Below, in pieces: positions 11,071 through 28,764 of a stretch of DNA of 30,149 bases. Within the stretch, counting starts at the first letter, position 1. Each line of letters begins with the position of its first letter. The notes beneath the pieces are model-generated. The model did no database searches. It was not told the origin of the DNA and worked only from the letters and a program-made list of their open reading frames with translations. The DNA is from a virus: positions 6,602 to 36,750 of the IMG/VR virus record IMGVR_UViG_3300030419_001063; one strand, given 5' to 3'. The position numbers and the translations under genes were made by a program.

Positions 11071-11078
11071 TCTTAAAA

Positions 11079-11146
11079 GGCGCAAGACAAGGCGCAAGGC
11101 GCAAGATTTAACCAAGCTGCGGGACCAGATCCCAACAAGGCGCAAG
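11079..11146 (+). repeat. GGCGCAAG short repeats, copy cluster A
   Basis: Exact GGCGCAAG occurs at 11079, 11091, 11098 and 11139, in a 70-bp non-coding stretch between the terminator and the promoter at 11158. A second cluster lies at 12288-12358, so the two clusters bracket the 11218-12196 gene cassette. The role is unknown; recombination or module-exchange boundaries are possible. Confidence 0.5.
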
Positions 11147-12283: not shown

Positions 12284-12706
12284 TCAAGACGCAGGGCGCA
12301 AGGCGCAAGACATTCTAGATTCCAAAACAGGGCGCAGGGCGCAGAACAAGGGCGCAAGATTCTTGAACCGCTGACCACGCGCCTCGGATATCCCACCATT
12401 AATCAAATCTGTCCCCTGATCACCGTCAAATAAAATTAAATCGCTGTCCTTGAGGCTCTTTACTAAGAAAAAATTTGACCCACCTCGTGCCCAATACGCC
12501 ATATTCCATGCAACCTGATGAGGCGTGACTTTTACAGCGTTTCCTTTGCTTACCTTCAACTCACACCAAAACGGCAACCCATCCCAAACCATATGACAAT
12601 CTGGAACACCGCCCCCATGCTTGTTTTCAATCCTCGTTGCGAAGCACTTCTTCGGCAAGTTCTGCCTTATCATGCTCCAGAAGTTCGCTTCTTGTCCTTT
12701 GCTCAT
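12284..12706 (-). CDS. PD-(D/E)XK-type nuclease, Holliday-junction-resolvase-like
   Basis: In this 140-residue protein the core GGGVPDCHMVWDG followed by FWCELKVSKG gives the D-x(n)-E-x-K pattern of PD-(D/E)XK nucleases (Asp about 36, Glu about 49, Lys about 51). A later VTPHQVAWNMAYW segment is usual in VRR-NUC/resolvase-like phage proteins. It overlaps the small terminase gene by 80 bases and could process concatemers for packaging. The last about 25 residues (FCALRPVLESRMSCALRPAS) come from the GGCGCA repeats and look appended. Confidence 0.7.
   Translation of the reverse strand: MSKGQEANFWSMIRQNLPKKCFATRIENKHGGGVPDCHMVWDGLPFWCELKVSKGNAVKVTPHQVAWNMAYWARGGSNFFLVKSLKDSDLILFDGDQGTDLINGGISEARGQRFKNLAPLFCALRPVLESRMSCALRPAS
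12288..12358 (+). repeat. GGCGCAAG/GGCGCAGG short repeats, copy cluster B
   Basis: GGCGCAAG occurs at 12295, 12302 and 12351. Variants GGCGCAGG and GGCGCAGA occur at 12331 and 12338, and GACGCAGG at 12288. These cover the 3' end of the minus-strand nuclease gene, where they encode CALRP-type peptide repeats at its C-terminus. The cluster matches the one at 11079-11146 on the other side of the 11218-12196 cassette. Confidence 0.5.
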
Positions 12707-13225: not shown

Positions 13226-13454
13226 GATTTACAGTATTTACGCTTAATTTCTAGATTTCTGCAAGCTTGGACATTTTCAAAACCTCAATATAAGGAAGTT
13301 ACCGTAAATCTAGGGGTGTTTTTGTAAATCAGCGTAAATCTTTTGGGCTATATAAAACAGGGTTGATTTACGGGATTTACAAGATTTACAAGATTAAATT
13401 CTCAAAAAAAAAAAAAAATATTTTTTTCGCTGAATGAGCGTAATAGTGTAAATC
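13226..13454. repeat. GTAAATC repeat cluster with an A15 tract; candidate origin or operator
   Basis: GTAAATC occurs on the plus strand at 13304, 13324, 13334 and 13448. Its complement GATTTAC occurs at 13226, 13365, 13374 and 13383. The last three are spaced exactly 9 bp apart, with a degenerate fourth at 13392. An A15 run (13404-13418), then TA and T7, follows. The cluster fills the divergent intergenic region 13197-13535. Iterons beside an AT-rich tract are typical of replication origins, but a multi-site operator would look similar. Confidence 0.6.
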
Positions 13455-15180: not shown

Positions 15181-16547
15181 CATATTATAATGAGATAGAC
15201 CCATACGCCGCAGAGTGGCTCAGATCGTTAATTCGGTCTGGGCATATTGCAGATGGGATAGTGGACGAAAGGAGCATATCAGATGTCCGACCAGATGAAC
15301 TTCAAGAATTTACTCAATGTCACTTCTTCGCAGGGATCGGCGTCTGGAGTTACGCACTCCGATCCGCAGGGTGGGAAGACGACCGACCAGTCTGGACAGG
15401 ATCTTGTCCGTGCCAACCTTTCAGCGGAGCAGGCAATAAAAAAGGGGTTGCTGACAAGCGGCACCTCTGGCCTCATTGGTTCCACCTCATCGAACAGTGC
15501 CAACCTTCAACGGTCTTTGGAGAACAGGTTGCGTCGAAAGACGGACTTGGTTGGATCGACCTTGTACAAGCTGACATGGAAGGAGCGGACTACGCCATCG
15601 GGTCTTTCGATCTCTGCTCTGCGGGCTTCGGCGCACCGCACATCAGGCAAAGACTCTGGTTCGTGGCAGACAAATGGATGGGCGACACCGACGACACGCG
15701 ACGGCAAGGGTGGATATCAGGGCGGTCGGATACGGAACGGCAAGATCAGCACGGACACGTTGGACGTGACGGCTCAACTATCGGGGTGGGCGACACCGAC
15801 ATCGATGACGGGCGGAACGAACATAGCCCCGTCACATCTGAACGGGAAGCACGGTTGGAACACGGGAGCGCAAGCGCAACTGGCAGGGTGGGCGACACCG
15901 ACGACATCGGATCACAAGGGAGCGGCAAAACCAGAGTCGGTCAAGGAGTGGAACAGTCGGGGTCACAATCTACCAGAGCAAGGACAGATGTCGGGATGGG
16001 CAACACCCAACACGATGGACAGTCTACCGTTACGCAGTCGAGAAGCAATGATCAAGATGTTTCTAACGTCAAAAAAGGGCGGATCATTTCCGAGCAATCT
16101 AAGGGAGCAAGTATCGCCAGAGATGATCGAAGCGGTGATGTTGGCGAAAATAGTAGCAGGGTGGGCAACACCCAACACGATGGACAGTTTACCTCTTCGA
16201 AGCCGAGAGGCGATGATCAGGATGCATCAGACGACGCGAAAGAACAGATCGTTTCCGTGCAATCTGAGGGAACAGGTGTCACCAGAGATGATCGAAGCTG
16301 TAATGGAAGCGAAGGGGGAGTTGATGCCCAAGCCAGAGCCAATGAGACTAACGGTTTCTGGAGAGATACTGATTGGCTCCTCTGCCGAGATGGAAAATGG
16401 AGGCCAGTTGAACCCAGCACATTCCCGTTGGTTAATGGGGCTACCGCCAGAGTGGGACGACTCCGCGCCTACGGCAACGCCATCACAGCGCAAGTCGCGC
16501 AAGGATTAATCGAAAGTTACATGGAGGTGAGAGATGATAGAATTTAG
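15174..16547 (+). CDS. DNA (cytosine-5) methyltransferase
   Basis: The 457-residue enzyme should transfer a methyl group from S-adenosylmethionine to cytosine C5, probably masking phage DNA from restriction. Visible motifs are I ([10 protein letters not shown], 51-60), IV with catalytic Cys80 (PCQPFSGAG), a VI-equivalent (FGEQVAS, 115-121), VIII ([14 protein letters not shown], 153-166) and a C-terminal RLRAYGNAI. Between about 168 and 395 lies a hydrophilic, low-complexity segment with repeats such as GDTDD and GNTQHDGQ in place of a typical target-recognition domain. A complete 408-codon ORF lies within it in the +1 frame. Confidence 0.9.
15283..16509 (+). CDS. Nested +1-frame ORF inside the methyltransferase gene
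   Basis: An uninterrupted 408-codon frame starts at ATG 15283 and ends at 16509, wholly inside the methyltransferase. It opens [20 protein letters not shown], continues with segments like [20 protein letters not shown], and carries five GWATP(T/N) repeats at 15676, 15784, 15886, 15994 and 16159. It ends with [21 protein letters not shown] recall similar W-x-TP repeat proteins ending in HSRWLMG-type motifs being annotated beside phage cytosine methyltransferases. The internal 165-bp duplication is better preserved in this frame than in the methyltransferase frame. Expression is unproven and no function is known. Confidence 0.65.
15994..16323 (+). repeat. 165-bp tandem duplication in the dual-coding region
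   Basis: Copy 1 is 15994-16158 and copy 2 is 16159-16323, both beginning at a GWATP repeat of the nested frame. By my hand alignment the 55-residue units are identical at 43 positions in the nested frame but at only about 26 in the methyltransferase frame. Many differences fall at the third codon position of the nested frame, so divergence has been filtered for the nested protein. Confidence 0.8.
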
Positions 16548-17610: not shown

Positions 17611-17853
17611 ATGTTCAAAGAACTATGGCAAAGGATCAAGACCAAACAGCGGACAGGCGCAAAACTTACGCGCAAGGAACAAATCCTGGCGGAACTAGAT
17701 CGAGATATCGGAACCGCAAAGCAACTGGCTGACAGATCAGGGGTGAAGCTGACGATTGTCCGCACGACGCTGTCTCAATTGAAAAGTTCTGGGAAGATCC
17801 GAGATACGGGTAAGGACGCAGGGAATGAAAGCATATGGGAGGTGGTAAAATAA
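17611..17853 (+). CDS. Winged-helix DNA-binding protein
   Basis: The 80-residue product has a basic N-terminus (QRIKTKQRTGAKLTRKEQ). A helix-turn-helix-like stretch follows (LDRDIGTAKQLADRSGVKLTIVRTTLSQLK, about 29-58, quoted in parts), then a beta-wing (SSGKIRDTGKDAGNESIWEV). It is probably a transcription regulator. Its promoter-proximal position just before 17869 and the large inverted repeat there make that repeat a candidate operator, though untested. Confidence 0.65.
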   Translation: MFKELWQRIKTKQRTGAKLTRKEQILAELDRDIGTAKQLADRSGVKLTIVRTTLSQLKSSGKIRDTGKDAGNESIWEVVK

Positions 17854-17868
17854 AAAAATAAAAAAGAC

Positions 17869-17914
17869 TTGAAACCAAACCACAAGTAGTTATATGATAA
17901 GTTGTGGTTTGGTT
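17869..17914 (+). promoter_or_regulatory. Promoter embedded in a 13-bp inverted repeat
   Basis: TTGAAA (17869-17874), 18 bases, then TATGAT (17893-17898) forms a good promoter. AACCAAACCACAA (17873-17885) and its exact complement TTGTGGTTTGGTT (17902-17914) flank the -10. The repeat could be an operator, or in RNA an early terminator-like stem, though without a T-run. One arm recurs at 11158-11170. It precedes the RAMP-like gene at 17968. Confidence 0.65.
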
Positions 17915-17967: not shown

Positions 17968-18735
17968 ATGTCTACAAAAGTAAAAACGAAAACACCTGAA
18001 ACAGTTCAGATACATACAATTAAAAGAGGTATGTTGAAACTAAGAATAATAGGTGACACTGCTATGTACTTCAACAGCATGAGTTCAAAGGCCATGCGTG
18101 ACTTACTTGTAGGAGCGCAACGTAAAACAGCGGCAGAAAAAAAAGAGATCAAACACAATCCAGAAAAAGAGTATCGGGAAACCATGTACAAACAAAAAGA
18201 TGGTAAGACCATGCTCTATTTTCCTGCAACAGGAATTAAAAAAGGTTTGGCTACAGCGGCATTGGAAACCGCAGGGGTTACAAAAAAGAACGTGGATCGT
18301 TTAATATTTATTCCAGAGCACAAGATTAACATATGGGGAAAACCTTATCTTAAAATGGATGTTGTTCGAGCCGCTGATATGAACAGGACACCAGACATAC
18401 GCACACGTGCGTACTTACCAAGGTGGTGTTCCGAAGTAACTATCAAGTACTGCACACCTACTTTTAGCGCACAGGGAATTGTATCTTTGTTAGCTAACTC
18501 TGGTATGATCTGTGGTCTCGGGGACAACAGACAGGAAAAAGGCAACGGTTCATTTGGTTCTTTCTCAGTCTACAGTGCTGAAGATATGGGAGAGGGACAA
18601 GGTCTTTGGGATGAGATCGTAGCAGAAGGACGCGAGGTTCAAGAATTAGCTTACGAACATCCTGAGTGTTACGATGACATCACACAAGAGTTGATGGACT
18701 TCTTGAGTGAAGAACGTATGCGAAGAGCCGCATAA
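17968..18735 (+). CDS. Conserved phage protein with RAMP/Cas7-like sequence features
   Basis: The 255-residue protein follows promoter 17869 and lies directly upstream of the pentamer array. It opens with a beta strand (MLKLRIIGDTAMYF). A basic helical stretch follows (about 50-70), then FPATGIKKGLATAALETAG (about 89-107), which resembles the PxxxxKGxxRxA segment of RAMP proteins. A glycine-rich GLGDNRQEKGNGSFGSF (about 192-208) near the C-terminal strand resembles the RAMP G-loop. That points to an RRM-derived Cas7-like fold that could bind RNA or ssDNA. This is inferred from motif shape; no CRISPR genes are present. The acidic helical tail is an addition. Confidence 0.55.
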   Translation: MSTKVKTKTPETVQIHTIKRGMLKLRIIGDTAMYFNSMSSKAMRDLLVGAQRKTAAEKKEIKHNPEKEYRETMYKQKDGKTMLYFPATGIKKGLATAALETAGVTKKNVDRLIFIPEHKINIWGKPYLKMDVVRAADMNRTPDIRTRAYLPRWCSEVTIKYCTPTFSAQGIVSLLANSGMICGLGDNRQEKGNGSFGSFSVYSAEDMGEGQGLWDEIVAEGREVQELAYEHPECYDDITQELMDFLSEERMRRAA

Positions 18736-18759: not shown

Positions 18760-18777
18760 GGGGCGGTGCGCCGCCCC
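18760..18777 (+). terminator. Strong GC hairpin between the RAMP-like gene and the array
   Basis: GGGGCGG and CCGCCCC pair around TGCG, 24 bases after the stop at 18735. No T-run follows, so it is not a clear intrinsic terminator. Its 5' arm contains GGCGG, the core of the array nonamers, so it may be a boundary element of the array. Confidence 0.6.
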
Positions 18778-18795
18778 TGTGCCACGGGTTAAGGT

Positions 18796-19143
18796 ACGGC
18801 GGTTCAGGTTTGGACTGGTTTGTTGAGTTCGGTTGAGTTAGGGCGGTTGAGTTGAGTCATGTTCCGTTTTGTTTACGTTTGTTAGGGTCTGGCGGTTGAG
18901 TCGGGGTTTGTTGTTTTGTGGTACGCTTAGTTCAGGCGGTTGAGTTGAGTTGCGTTGAGTTGCGTTTCGTTCAGTTAGGTTACGGCGGTTAAGTTATGTC
19001 CAGTTATGTCTTGATTGAGGTCTGTTGAGTTTCGTTACGGCGGTTTAGGTGTGTTGAGGTGTGTTGAGTTTGGTTGAGTTTCGTTACGGCGGTTACGTCT
19101 GGGCGCGTTGAGTTGCGTTGAGTTTGGTTATGTCTTGGCGGTT
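18796..19143 (+). repeat. Pentamer array with GGCGGTT nonamer separators
   Basis: Eight NNGGCGGTT nonamers start at 18796, 18840, 18889, 18933, 18982, 19037, 19086 and 19135. Between them lie 7, 8, 7, 8, 9, 8 and 8 units of 5 nt with consensus NNGTT (often GAGTT, GCGTT, TCGTT). Spacings are 44, 49, 44, 49, 55, 49 and 49 nt, so length varies by whole pentamers apart from one extra base in block 5. The G at pentamer position 3 is nearly invariant. The region is about 350 bp, non-coding, and strongly G/T-biased on the plus strand. It lies between the RAMP-like gene and the gene at 19168. It is not a CRISPR array. Confidence 0.85.
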
Positions 19144-19167: not shown

Positions 19168-19665
19168 ATGAGTAAATTTAATAAGAAGACACGTCAGAAG
19201 ATGGTCGATGACTATCTGAATGACACAGGTAGAAATACCTTTAAAGCGGATGAGTTTGTTTTGTGGTTGGAAACACAACCAGATCATCCCGCATACGATG
19301 CTTTTCATGGCAGAGACGATGAGTTGCTATGGCAAGCAAAACTTAACCTGGCTAGACAATTAGCTTCTGGCCTACGCATCGTAGTGAAGAGCGAAGTTAT
19401 CGAAGCAGAGATGCCTTCCATAAAAGTCACAGAATATCCTGCGTATATTTCACCAGTTGCCAATAGAAAACTGGGCGGAGGTTATGAAGCGTTTGATCCT
19501 GATAGTTCAAGATCACAGGAAGAATTGCGTAGACAAGCAGGGGTATACCTTGCAGGATGGTTGAATAGGTATAGGGGTTGTGCCGAGCACATAGGCGTAA
19601 ACCTAAAACCTATCGAAGACATTGTTCGTTTACTACGTGATGACAAGGTAGAGGATGTGGCATGA
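19168..19665 (+). CDS. Phage protein of unknown function downstream of the array
   Basis: The 165-residue product has AGGAGG at 19155-19160 upstream of ATG 19168. It starts MSKFNKKTRQKMVDDYLNDT and includes WLETQPDHPAYDAFHG (about 33-48) and IEAEMPSIKVTEYPAYISPV in the middle. Its C-terminus has a charged helix (DIVRLLRDDKVEDVA). The layout (basic start, mixed alpha/beta core) does not match a family I can name with confidence. It is the first gene after the array, so the array could control it or its product could act on it. Confidence 0.7.
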   Translation: MSKFNKKTRQKMVDDYLNDTGRNTFKADEFVLWLETQPDHPAYDAFHGRDDELLWQAKLNLARQLASGLRIVVKSEVIEAEMPSIKVTEYPAYISPVANRKLGGGYEAFDPDSSRSQEELRRQAGVYLAGWLNRYRGCAEHIGVNLKPIEDIVRLLRDDKVEDVA

Positions 19666-25987: not shown

Positions 25988-27509
25988 TAACGCTACGCTG
26001 ATCTTGGGACCTCCAGGTTGCGGCAAAACTTATACGTTAATCGAAAGAGTACAGGCGAAGCTTGAAGAAGGTGTGCATCCTTCGCGAATTGGTGTGGTCT
26101 CCTTTACCACCAAAGCGATAGGAGAGTTTGTTGCTAGAGCCTGTGACAAGTTCAATCTTACCAAGCAAGACTTCCCACACTTCAAGACTCTACATGCAAC
26201 TGGGTATCATGGGTTGGGCCTGGCCCCAAAGGATGTGATGAGCAAACAAGACTTTACCAAATTAGGCGAGATGCTTGCCGTAGACTTCGATGGCGCAGAC
26301 TCTACGTCCGTACACGATGGGGTAGCCATGCCAAGCATGAAGGGATCGGGAGCCAAGTACCTACAGATTATTATGCGGTCGGTCTATCGGATGTCTGACC
26401 TGGACTTTGAGTTCAACTACGAGGAGGATCACGACCTGAGTTTTTCCAAGCTTGTGCAGATTGAAAAGCAATTGCTTGAGTACAAGTCCAAAACCAACCG
26501 TGTGGATTTCTCTGACATGATTGCCAAGTACATAGACATCGCGGAGCCGCCGAATCTGGATCTCTTGATTGTTGACGAGGCGCAGGATCTTACACCCTTA
26601 CAATGGAAGATGGTAAGAAAGATGTCCGAACATGCGGACGAGGTGTTGATTGCAGGGGATGATGATCAGGCTATCCACCGTTGGACGTCTGTAGACGTCG
26701 ATGACTTCATTAACTGCACGGATAGGGTTGAGGTACTCAATCAGTCGTACCGCTTACCACGGAGCGTCTGGGAGCTTGCTATAGGTATCTCCCACCGCAT
26801 ACCGGGCAGACTAGAGAAGGAGTTCTTTCCCCGACAGGAAGAGGGCAAAGTTACGAGGGTCATGAACCGATGGGCACTGCCATTACATCAGGGATCATGG
26901 ACGATCATGGCTCGAACCAACTCGTTTGTGAACGATATAGCAGAGTTCTTGGAGCAAGAGGGATACTTCTACAGTCGCAAGGGTCACTGGTCTGTGCCTG
27001 AAAAGAAACTGGAAGCGATGTCTGTGTGGAAGGATATCACCACAGGGAAGGGCACGTACGTCGGGAGAGTCAAAAGATTGTATGAGATGGTGCCAAAGAT
27101 GGGAAAAGGTGCAGTTGTTAAACGTGGATCTATCAAACTATTAGACGCCGCTGCGCCTGACGAACTGTTGACTCATGCCAAACTGGTCAAGGACTTTGGG
27201 ATGTTGGCACCCATAGATACATCCCCTCTCGATGTCATTCGATTATCGGAACAGGAAAAGATTTACATCAGATCTATTGAGAGAAAAGGCGAGAGCGTTT
27301 ACAAAGAACCAAGGATCAAGATTTCTACGATCCATGCCATGAAGGGTGGTGAGGATGACAACGTAGCGGTATACTTGGGATCTACCAAAGCATGTGTAGA
27401 GGGTAAACATCCAGAAGATGAGGACAGAATATTTTATGTGGCGGTGACTCGTGCCAAACAAAACCTGTATCTTATAGAGTCAGACAAGAAGTACAGGTAC
27501 GAGATATGA
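25980..27509 (+). CDS. UvrD/Rep-family SF1 helicase
   Basis: The 509-residue product has motif I GPPGCGKT (10-17), motif Ia VVSFTTKA (about 39-46), motif II VDEAQD (198-203), and motif III GDDDQAIHRW (226-235). Motif IV QSYRLP, motif V STIHAMKGGE and motif VI VAVTRAKQN follow. It is a shortened SF1A 3'-5' helicase with the standard motif order, probably for replication or repair of phage DNA. It starts eight bases inside the previous gene and overlaps the next start by four. Confidence 0.9.
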   Translation: MIDNATLILGPPGCGKTYTLIERVQAKLEEGVHPSRIGVVSFTTKAIGEFVARACDKFNLTKQDFPHFKTLHATGYHGLGLAPKDVMSKQDFTKLGEMLAVDFDGADSTSVHDGVAMPSMKGSGAKYLQIIMRSVYRMSDLDFEFNYEEDHDLSFSKLVQIEKQLLEYKSKTNRVDFSDMIAKYIDIAEPPNLDLLIVDEAQDLTPLQWKMVRKMSEHADEVLIAGDDDQAIHRWTSVDVDDFINCTDRVEVLNQSYRLPRSVWELAIGISHRIPGRLEKEFFPRQEEGKVTRVMNRWALPLHQGSWTIMARTNSFVNDIAEFLEQEGYFYSRKGHWSVPEKKLEAMSVWKDITTGKGTYVGRVKRLYEMVPKMGKGAVVKRGSIKLLDAAAPDELLTHAKLVKDFGMLAPIDTSPLDVIRLSEQEKIYIRSIERKGESVYKEPRIKISTIHAMKGGEDDNVAVYLGSTKACVEGKHPEDEDRIFYVAVTRAKQNLYLIESDKKYRYEI

Positions 27510-28315
27510 AACTACCCGACGGAAATGTTCTCATCAGTTTCAGTGGTGGTCGCACCTCTGGGTATATGTTACATAGGATACTGGAGGCTAACGGAAATCT
27601 ACCAGATCGCGTGAAGGTTTTGTTTGCCAACACTGGGCGTGAGATGCCAGGGACACTGGACTTTGTGCACAACATAGAAAAGAACTGGGGCGTAGACATC
27701 ACATGGCTTGAGTATTCGAGGGCACCATCCAACCGATATCAAAATGGTAAGGCACACTTTCAGACGGTCAGTTGGGACTCCGCTGCGCGAGAGGGAGAGC
27801 CGTTTGATAAGTACCTGTCGTTCAACATGCTACCAAATGTATTCCGTAGATCCTGCACTCAGGAGTTGAAGGTCAAGACTATGCGTCGGTATCTGTTATC
27901 TATCGGGTGGGAGCACTGGACAAACACCATTGGCATCCGTGCAGACGAAGCCAAGCGGGTAAAACCAAGCAAGGACAAGCGGTGGGACAACTGGTTTCCA
28001 CTGGCAGATGCAGGGGTCACGAAGCAGAATGTTATGTTCTTCTGGAAACAACATGGGTTTGATCTAAGGATCACGCCAGGATCAGGGAACTGTGACGGTT
28101 GTTTCTTGAAGAGCGAAGCGACACTAGCGGCTATGTGGCGTGAGTATCCAGACCGCATGAAGTGGTGGCAGAACTGGGAAAAAACAAAGGACAGATCATT
28201 CCATGATGTACGCACGTACAAAGAACTGGGAGAGTTTGTAGGCAGACAAGGGGATTGGATTTTTGATGACGAAGCTTTCTTATGCCAGACGGACGATGGG
28301 GAGTGCACAGGATGA
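27506..28315 (+). CDS. PP-loop ATPase, PAPS-reductase-like
   Basis: The 269-residue product has the PP-loop motif ISFSGGRTSG (10-19) and later LFANTGREMPGTLDF, both typical of adenylyl-sulfate/PAPS reductase-type PP-loop proteins. A cysteine pair in GNCDGCFLKS (about 194-203) could bind zinc or iron-sulfur. In phages such proteins occur in replication or modification regions; their substrate is unknown, and DNA or nucleotide modification is a possible role. No dnd-type phosphorothioation partners were seen nearby. It overlaps both neighbours. Confidence 0.75.
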   Translation: MKLPDGNVLISFSGGRTSGYMLHRILEANGNLPDRVKVLFANTGREMPGTLDFVHNIEKNWGVDITWLEYSRAPSNRYQNGKAHFQTVSWDSAAREGEPFDKYLSFNMLPNVFRRSCTQELKVKTMRRYLLSIGWEHWTNTIGIRADEAKRVKPSKDKRWDNWFPLADAGVTKQNVMFFWKQHGFDLRITPGSGNCDGCFLKSEATLAAMWREYPDRMKWWQNWEKTKDRSFHDVRTYKELGEFVGRQGDWIFDDEAFLCQTDDGECTG

Positions 28316-28764
28316 AACTAATACCTGTGCCTATTAGTCTACGTGAGGCTCGTGAGTTTGTTGGAAACTTTCACCGTCACAATAAACCACCACAAGGTGG
28401 GAAGTTTGCCATAGGTGCAAGTTACGATGACTGTCTGGTTGGTGTTGCTATTGTAGGTAACCCAGTAGCTAGGCGCATGATGGATGGATTTACAGCGGAA
28501 GTAGTAAGGGTATGTGTGCAGGACGATGCACCAAAGAATACCTGTTCCTTTCTATACGGAAGGTGTTGGCGGATCTGGCAACAGATGGGAGGTAAACGAA
28601 TGATAACGTACACCTTACAATCGGAAGCTGGTTCGAGCCTGAAGGGAGCAGGATGGAAACTGGTTGGCGAAGTAGAACTGAAACCCAAGGGATGGCAGAA
28701 CCGTCCAGGGAGAAAGTGGCAACCAATATATGGGCAACTAAAATTTAAATGGGAGGCAGTATGA
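28312..28764 (+). CDS. XF1762-family, GNAT-like phage protein
   Basis: The 150-residue product begins MKLIPVPISLREAREFVGNF, followed by HRHNKPPQGGKFAIGA, VGVAIVGNPVARRM and EVVRVCVQDDAPKNTCSFLY. This order matches the XF1762 family, which has a GNAT-like acetyltransferase fold in phages and prophages. I use ATG 28312, which overlaps the previous stop; the start at 28282 is inside the neighbour. Substrate unknown. Together with the PP-loop gene it could act on nucleotides or proteins. Confidence 0.75.
   Translation: MKLIPVPISLREAREFVGNFHRHNKPPQGGKFAIGASYDDCLVGVAIVGNPVARRMMDGFTAEVVRVCVQDDAPKNTCSFLYGRCWRIWQQMGGKRMITYTLQSEAGSSLKGAGWKLVGEVELKPKGWQNRPGRKWQPIYGQLKFKWEAV

Follow-up and report, generated by a model that had tools for sequence, protein, structure and literature searches.

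A punctuated pentanucleotide array next to a Cas7-like gene is very probably the guide-RNA locus of a VIPR system in a marine phage

Class 1 CRISPR-Cas complexes work on the principle of an RNA-binding filament with periodic non-pairing positions. The locus described here also recalls TIGR-Tas systems, which are phage-borne tandem guide arrays that target DNA, although Tas proteins are not RAMPs and their guides pair contiguously. The closest described system is VIPR (Viral Interference Programmable Repeat), for which a preprint of April 2026 (doi 10.64898/2026.04.26.720920; PMC13142463) is so far the only source; in this system, a phage RAMP protein acts with guide RNAs (vrRNAs) made of alternating GGY and NN. 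The NN pair with DNA, one target base being skipped per pair and the skip falling usually at the codon wobble position; the targets are mostly competing phages and satellites, and viruses appear in this way to silence the genes of their rivals (PMC13142463). It has been proposed that CRISPR descends from VIPR; seven types of VIPR are distinguished, SUSP1 being type II (PMC13142463).

The window analysed here (the whole stretch of DNA under study) comprises 30.1 kb of an IMG/VR virus record that is 36.75 kb long. The terminase it encodes shares 58-61% identity with the terminases of Pelagibacter phage HTVC027P and phage 023Pt_psg01, and neither of these two phages figures in the set of phage records that match vipr. 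The original prediction, made on the letters of this DNA, had singled out an array of 5-nt units and held that no described element has such a layout, a statement that the posting of VIPR in April 2026 makes out of date (PMC13142463). We are confident that the array encodes the guide RNAs (vrRNAs) of a VIPR system carried by a marine virus of bacteria; of the defining features of VIPR, the system shows those open to testing here, whereas it lacks the tailed layout of type II.

Other features of the window are recorded here as observations in their own right. Short GGCGCAA-like 7-mer arrays occupy the intergenic regions on the two sides of one gene block (11077-11105 and 12285-12360), and three to four GATTTACAA copies are followed by a run of 15 A (13365-13418). 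A cytosine methyltransferase gene contains a 165-bp tandem duplication (79% alike; 15997-16305) and is overlapped by a second long ORF in another frame (15283-16509). Further on, a PAPS-reductase/SspD-like gene followed by a Mom-like gene (27506-28764) suggests phage DNA modification.

The vipr gene and its surroundings

The gene that precedes the array, vipr (17968..18735, + strand), is identified by a PDB profile match and by its predicted fold. It encodes a 255-aa RAMP (Cas7/Csm3-like) protein of phrog_4652, a family listed as function unknown in PHROGs and to which all 24 aligned members belong. The profile of 24 homologues has a sole PDB sequence match, 36pp, the 'SUSP1 Vipr protein' (E 2.5e-5), and when run against the SUSP1 genome the family profile again finds a match (E 1.8e-7). 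The top PDB matches of the AlphaFold2 model (pLDDT 86.5) in Foldseek are Csm3/Cas7-type subunits of type III and VII CRISPR complexes, and a viral protein named Cas-associated RAMP also resembles the model. In the homologues, the glycine-rich loop G.GD.R..KG is invariant. We conclude that the 255-aa protein is a Cas7-like RAMP of the Vipr family: a single-RRM RAMP with a G-loop, as in VIPR, and of the same family as SUSP1 Vipr, albeit longer than the latter (about 202 aa). The RAMP fold is also that of the Csm3/Cas7 backbone of Class 1 CRISPR-Cas. The locus nevertheless differs from CRISPR-Cas in its 5-nt units and non-contiguous code and in having no repeat-spacer layout and no recognised cas1/cas2; the identical repeats, contiguous spacers and cas genes by which CRISPR-Cas is recognised are not what is found here, no other cas genes being recognised among the window proteins scanned.

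Upstream of vipr, a pattern scan finds a promoter-like TTGAAA-18-TATGAT (17869..17914, + strand) in a 13-bp inverted repeat, possibly an operator, whose arms AACCAAACCACAA (17873-17885) and TTGTGGTTTGGTT (17902-17914) enclose the promoter-like site; this site is suggestive only, promoter-like matches in the region being not above shuffles. The 80-aa helix-turn-helix protein encoded just upstream (17611..17853, + strand; weak Pfam matches below cut-offs) could be the regulator of the inverted-repeat site. On the other side, a G+C-rich hairpin (GGGGCGG-TGCG-CCGCCCC, 18760..18777, + strand) lies between the vipr stop and the array. Nearly all relatives examined have a strong hairpin at the same place, with a different stem sequence and length and, in several of them, UUCG, UGCG or GAAA tetraloops.

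Array layout and turnover of its blocks

The array is intergenic, in the early/replication half of the window, and consists of 72 trinucleotides on the + strand, spaced by NN and split by GGC-G-GTT boxes. It begins slightly before the start first proposed, at 18788, and stops at 19143. GTT accounts for 60% of its trinucleotides, GGT for 12%, GGC for 12% and GTC for 8% (n=72 units in the window). The eight GGCGGTT boxes (starting at 18798, 18842, 18891, 18935, 18984, 19039, 19088 and 19137) stand at exactly the distances predicted, 44, 49, 44, 49, 55, 49 and 49, and no further + strand copy exists in the whole 30 kb. The 5-nt periodicity survives shuffling: against a baseline of 500 dinucleotide-preserving shuffles, the match autocorrelation has z = 7.4 at lag 5, 7.5 at lag 10 and 8.1 at lag 49, with another peak at lag 44. 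Likewise, a parser built to link trinucleotides across two free bases gives 18788-19139 a score of 137, compared with 9.8 +/- 2.7 (maximum 20.6) in 300 shuffles.

The units themselves combine constrained and hypervariable positions. Across the window and its closest relatives (599 units), 97% of the units have G at position 3, which bears out the near-invariance noticed at first sight, and 96% have T or C at position 5, where G never occurs; positions 1-2 take all 16 dinucleotides. The NN entropy is 3.78 of 4 bits. The 5-nt register, initially thought to be preserved throughout, is kept inside each block and moves by one at every box. The boxes, described at first as nonamers, are present but are better read as a full GGC and then GTT after one spacer base instead of two (a 4-nt step). 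The one extra base that had been noted in a block is real: it makes a 3-nt spacer at 19016-19018 in the block of 55 nt, and it is inherited, the same lesion being found in relatives L128, L129 and L203. A protein-coding reading of the array was considered and rejected, as no ORF of at least 80 aa runs across it on either strand, in keeping with what had been stated, and the spacings are not multiples of three. An Rfam 15 covariance-model search of the array gave no match up to E 1, nor did BLASTN against 50,697 phage records.

The eight boxes delimit seven blocks, each of 8-10 dinucleotides in the window (mostly 8-13 across the family), which, if one block is one guide, agrees with the about 9-16 repeats per guide RNA of VIPR. 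As read by the parser on the + strand, these putative guides are CA TT CT TT GA CG GA AG (block 1, 18802..18844), GA GA AT CC TT TA TT AG CT (block 2, 18846..18893), GA GG TT GT GT AC TA CA (block 3, 18895..18937), GA GA GC GA GC TC CA AG AC (block 4, 18939..18986), AA AT CA AT TT, the 3-nt spacer TGA with the extra base, then CT GA TC AC (block 5, 18988..19041), TA GT GA GT GA TG GA TC AC (block 6, 19043..19090) and AC TG GC GA GC GA TG AT TT (block 7, 19092..19139). Blocks travel between phages as cassettes: in the window's clade, 23 of the 73 block types are present in more than one contig, and the neighbours of blocks common to several contigs differ in 81 of the 93 comparisons made. Within common blocks, the NN positions show 0.032 and 0.036 substitutions per site (about 0.034) against 0.057 for each of trinucleotide positions 2 and 3, in comparisons whose pairs are not independent of each other. 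The NN are free between blocks and held inside a block, as expected of guides, which is support and not proof. Because the cassettes reshuffle, we read the boxes as guide borders, and they may mark guide boundaries or processing sites.

Several of these traits are shared with the SUSP1 system, namely a RAMP of the same family and tandem 5-nt repeats of a fixed trinucleotide plus free NN, and, as described below, 1-nt-skip, wobble-phased matches, the targeting of rival phages and of a rival vipr, and an accessory gene beside vipr. Others are not: the scaffold here is mostly GTT, a related consensus, where SUSP1 has GGY. The putative guides, moreover, are joined head to tail by GGC-N-GTT boxes, in which the spacing is one base, and lack a structured tail; in the SUSP1 arrays, the parser finds single runs of 13-17 units with non-repeat sequence after them. 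In type II, a structured 3' tail follows each repeat tract; here no such tail is found, and the array is not filed as type II because its blocks abut with one base between them.

Linkage to vipr and a skipping target code

Relatives were drawn from IMG/VR by the genes at 17968 (before the array) and 19168 (after it). In their comparison, similar arrays occur in many related phages, as the original prediction would have it; in close relatives the array is at the same place in all, and 66 of the 77 box spacings in the window's clade equal 4 modulo 5. Distant relatives (upstream protein 32-69% identical) have GGT, GGC or GAC scaffolds with boxes such as GGC-G-GTC or GGC-A-GGC, and the fixed trinucleotide varies among vipr relatives between GTT, GGY and GAC. 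A vipr relative with a GAC/NN scaffold, not GGY/NN, is found for instance at L223:4101-4700. In many relatives there are two arrays, on either side of genes.

The linkage of array and vipr is tight. All of the 122 vipr loci tested (122/122) have an array on the vipr strand and <=2 kb away, and among the loci fetched with the box pattern alone, no protein being used, 19 have vipr beside the array. With a stricter chain detector, arrays are found in nearly all vipr loci while mirrored sequence gives 1 chain, and loci fetched for other reasons contain an array, of different make, in 1 of 192 cases (1.8 Mb). Array loci that lack vipr are contigs beginning inside or just before the array, except for one coding repeat. 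For the lenient parser, mirrored sequence is unusable as a control (33 loci positive) because a reversed GGC/NN array still reads GGY/NN; the valid controls are shuffles, the strict chain detector and unrelated loci. When applied to SUSP1 as a positive control, the same pattern, parser and profile recover both vipr and the vrRNAs known from the preprint. L515, a 64.9-kb viral contig, has a further array of punctuated pentamers (G051:C1:55346-55870 and 58780-59138), which read GTC/NN, or GAC/NN on the opposite strand, and have GTCGCATT boxes; the vipr family profile finds nothing in this contig and no RAMP is recognisable between its two arrays, which are possibly an unrelated or a very divergent guide system.

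Cultured phages also have the pair. In the Gordonia phages UmaThurman and Ecliptus, a vipr homologue (27-29% identity) is followed directly by GGY/NN arrays that are boxed as in the window, with GGC-A-GGC boxes about every 10 units and a GGC/GGT scaffold unlike the GTT of the window; Gordonia phages Pipp and ODay have a vipr homologue too. The arrays are not annotated as such in the Gordonia phage records, and UmaThurman has a 'hypothetical protein' on its array. This call, UmaThurman gene 40 (NC_031249.1 33362-33685; L520:4628-4951), sits on a vrRNA array and is probably no protein gene.

The third member of the locus is a 165-aa accessory gene (19168..19665, + strand, preceded by AGGAGG), vap-like by position. 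In the window's clade the array lies between vipr and this gene, directly before its ribosome-binding site; in divergent relatives, the gene is directly behind vipr and the array comes after it or elsewhere. Among 45 divergent vipr loci, a homologue of the 165-aa protein is encoded directly downstream of vipr in 41; of the other four, two (L204 and L240) are contigs that stop shortly after vipr. By its position, the 165-aa family corresponds to the accessory gene (vap) that accompanies vipr in VIPR. Unlike the accessory gene of SUSP1, it is without a recognised relative: the protein (model pLDDT 84) gave no Pfam, PHROG, PADLOC or credible PDB/Foldseek match.

The target code was examined by running 612 guides, each 8-16 dinucleotides long, at skips of 0-3 over 4.6 Mb of phage DNA in which arrays were masked, the controls being the same guides with their dinucleotide order shuffled. 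At E<0.01, skips of 0, 1, 2 and 3 give 1, 9, 1 and 2 matches, against 1.5, 1.0, 1.5 and 3.5 in the controls; at E<0.1, they give 10, 24, 5 and 13, against 8, 10.5, 11.5 and 9.5. Only the 1-nt skip exceeds its shuffled control, a family-wide signal that is seen only with all guides and the 4.6 Mb, a first target test on a small database having shown little. The best target is that of an L235 guide, with 24/26 in a prohead protease gene of L238 (Pfam S78, 5e-50); an L231 guide matches another prohead protease at 19/20 (L426; 2e-37), and an L239 guide matches the end of rival vipr genes at 18/20 (L245 and L247), against 16/20 at the same place in its own vipr. In all of these best targets (L238, L426, L245/L247), the match keeps the codon phase and the skipped base falls on the wobble (third) position, and at the level of the family the matches follow the VIPR rule of a 1-nt skip placed at wobble. 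The NN of the window's clade are similar in composition to codon positions 1-2 (r 0.83) and to those of no other phase or strand, a correlation that is descriptive and partly driven by GA.

For the guides of the window's clade, seeds scanned against IMG/VR (8-dinucleotide seeds of three guides and a block-5 core seed) gave chance-level matches that stop at the seed, and the block-5 seed matches in helicase and small marine-phage genes are those expected for an AT-rich seed. The block 6 seed matched GTDB genomes at chance level, no match extending past the seed, and guides run against HTVC027P, HTVC023P and 023Pt_psg01 show no skip-1 excess. Block 6 does match an ArdA-like antirestriction gene at 17/18 in codon phase (L433:5503-6183; Pfam ArdA E 2.5e-4, below the curated cut-off), a candidate that is not significant. 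The L433 contig is from metagenome 3300017912, the source also of VIPR phages L145 and L178. We infer only that the window's own guides may be active.

Proposed mechanism, alternative readings and implications

By analogy with the published SUSP1 system, a + strand RNA would be transcribed from the array and Vipr monomers (RAMP fold) would line it, one per five nucleotides, each holding the conserved G-U-U (elsewhere GGY) and exposing two free bases. Each block between GGC-G-GTT boxes would be one guide of 8-13 dinucleotides, and its NN string, with one target base skipped per pair, would match the double-stranded DNA of rival phages. Synonymous mutation would be no help to the target because the skipped base is usually on the codon wobble position. 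Guide binding would repress the target gene, as in SUSP1, and guide blocks would be gained, lost and reshuffled as cassettes. The suggestion that a 5-nt register in RNA suits a protein binding one unit per subunit is in all likelihood correct, as the adjoining gene encodes a Cas7-like RAMP of the Vipr family. Counted against the VIPR reading are that no structured 3' tail of the kind seen in SUSP1 vrRNAs is found between blocks, that the dominant trinucleotide is GTT and not GGY, that the register is broken in one block, and that the window-clade guide scans in IMG/VR and GTDB gave chance-level matches only.

Could the array instead act as double-stranded DNA (replication origin, partition or packaging site), contacted by an oligomeric protein with one 5-bp unit per subunit? 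That two units make about one helical turn, and that the array is intergenic in the early/replication half, would fit such a site, which the original prediction had entertained as an origin, a centromere or a filament. It would not, however, predict the strand coupling to a RAMP gene, the reshuffling of cassettes with NN more conserved than the scaffold inside blocks, the codon-like NN composition or the 1-nt-skip target matches, and many relatives have two arrays flanking genes; this reading is not needed and we consider it most improbable. We would give similarly little credit to the idea that the array regulates the 165-aa gene downstream of it, as a 5' untranslated leader or as a protein sponge (in a TRAP-like manner or in Vipr autoregulation): the position of the array directly before the ribosome-binding site of this gene speaks for it in the window's clade, but in divergent relatives the gene stands right behind vipr with the array after it or elsewhere. 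The likeness to TRAP-binding RNA that had been proposed, short G-containing triplets two bases apart, is not supported either. TRAP requires AG triplets, and A precedes G in only about 40% of units; the (G/U)AG rule is not followed, there are far more than 11 units, a scan of proteins turned up no TRAP-like gene, and the layout is accounted for by the RAMP.

Slippage creates tandem repeats, and the array might be a functionless degenerate repeat. Yet G is kept at one position in 97% of 599 units while neighbouring positions take all 16 dinucleotides; the array is moreover tied to one gene family across phages and conserved in divergent ones, which makes this account scarcely credible. A different question, within the VIPR reading, is whether the boxes are borders at all, as the guides might be one long continuously coated RNA, or overlapping (staggered) guides cut across the boxes. 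The 5-nt register does span the whole array, and 'staggered arrays with overlapping vrRNAs' are reported for other VIPR types (PMC13142463); against this, blocks common to phages switch neighbours at the boxes and the best target matches end inside one block, so that we regard guides without such borders as rather unlikely.

Returning to the reading of the locus as a VIPR system with one guide per block, we propose tentatively, and with some doubt, that it represents a distinct VIPR type, with a GUU/NN scaffold, head-to-tail tail-less guides at one-base GGC-N-GTT boxes, a library of cassettes exchanged between phages and a protein that reads GUU where others read GGY. If so, the array would be a virus-borne counterpart of the CRISPR spacer array.

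More broadly, the analysis gives independent support for the VIPR code, in that the 1-nt skip and the wobble phasing emerge from phages other than the published ones. It extends VIPR to abundant marine phages related to Pelagibacter phages, with a scaffold and an array layout that differ from those published for SUSP1, and it points to Gordonia phages UmaThurman and Ecliptus as cultured examples whose arrays had gone unrecognised or under a hypothetical-protein call. The turnover of cassettes, finally, makes guide acquisition without Cas1 testable by comparing related phages.
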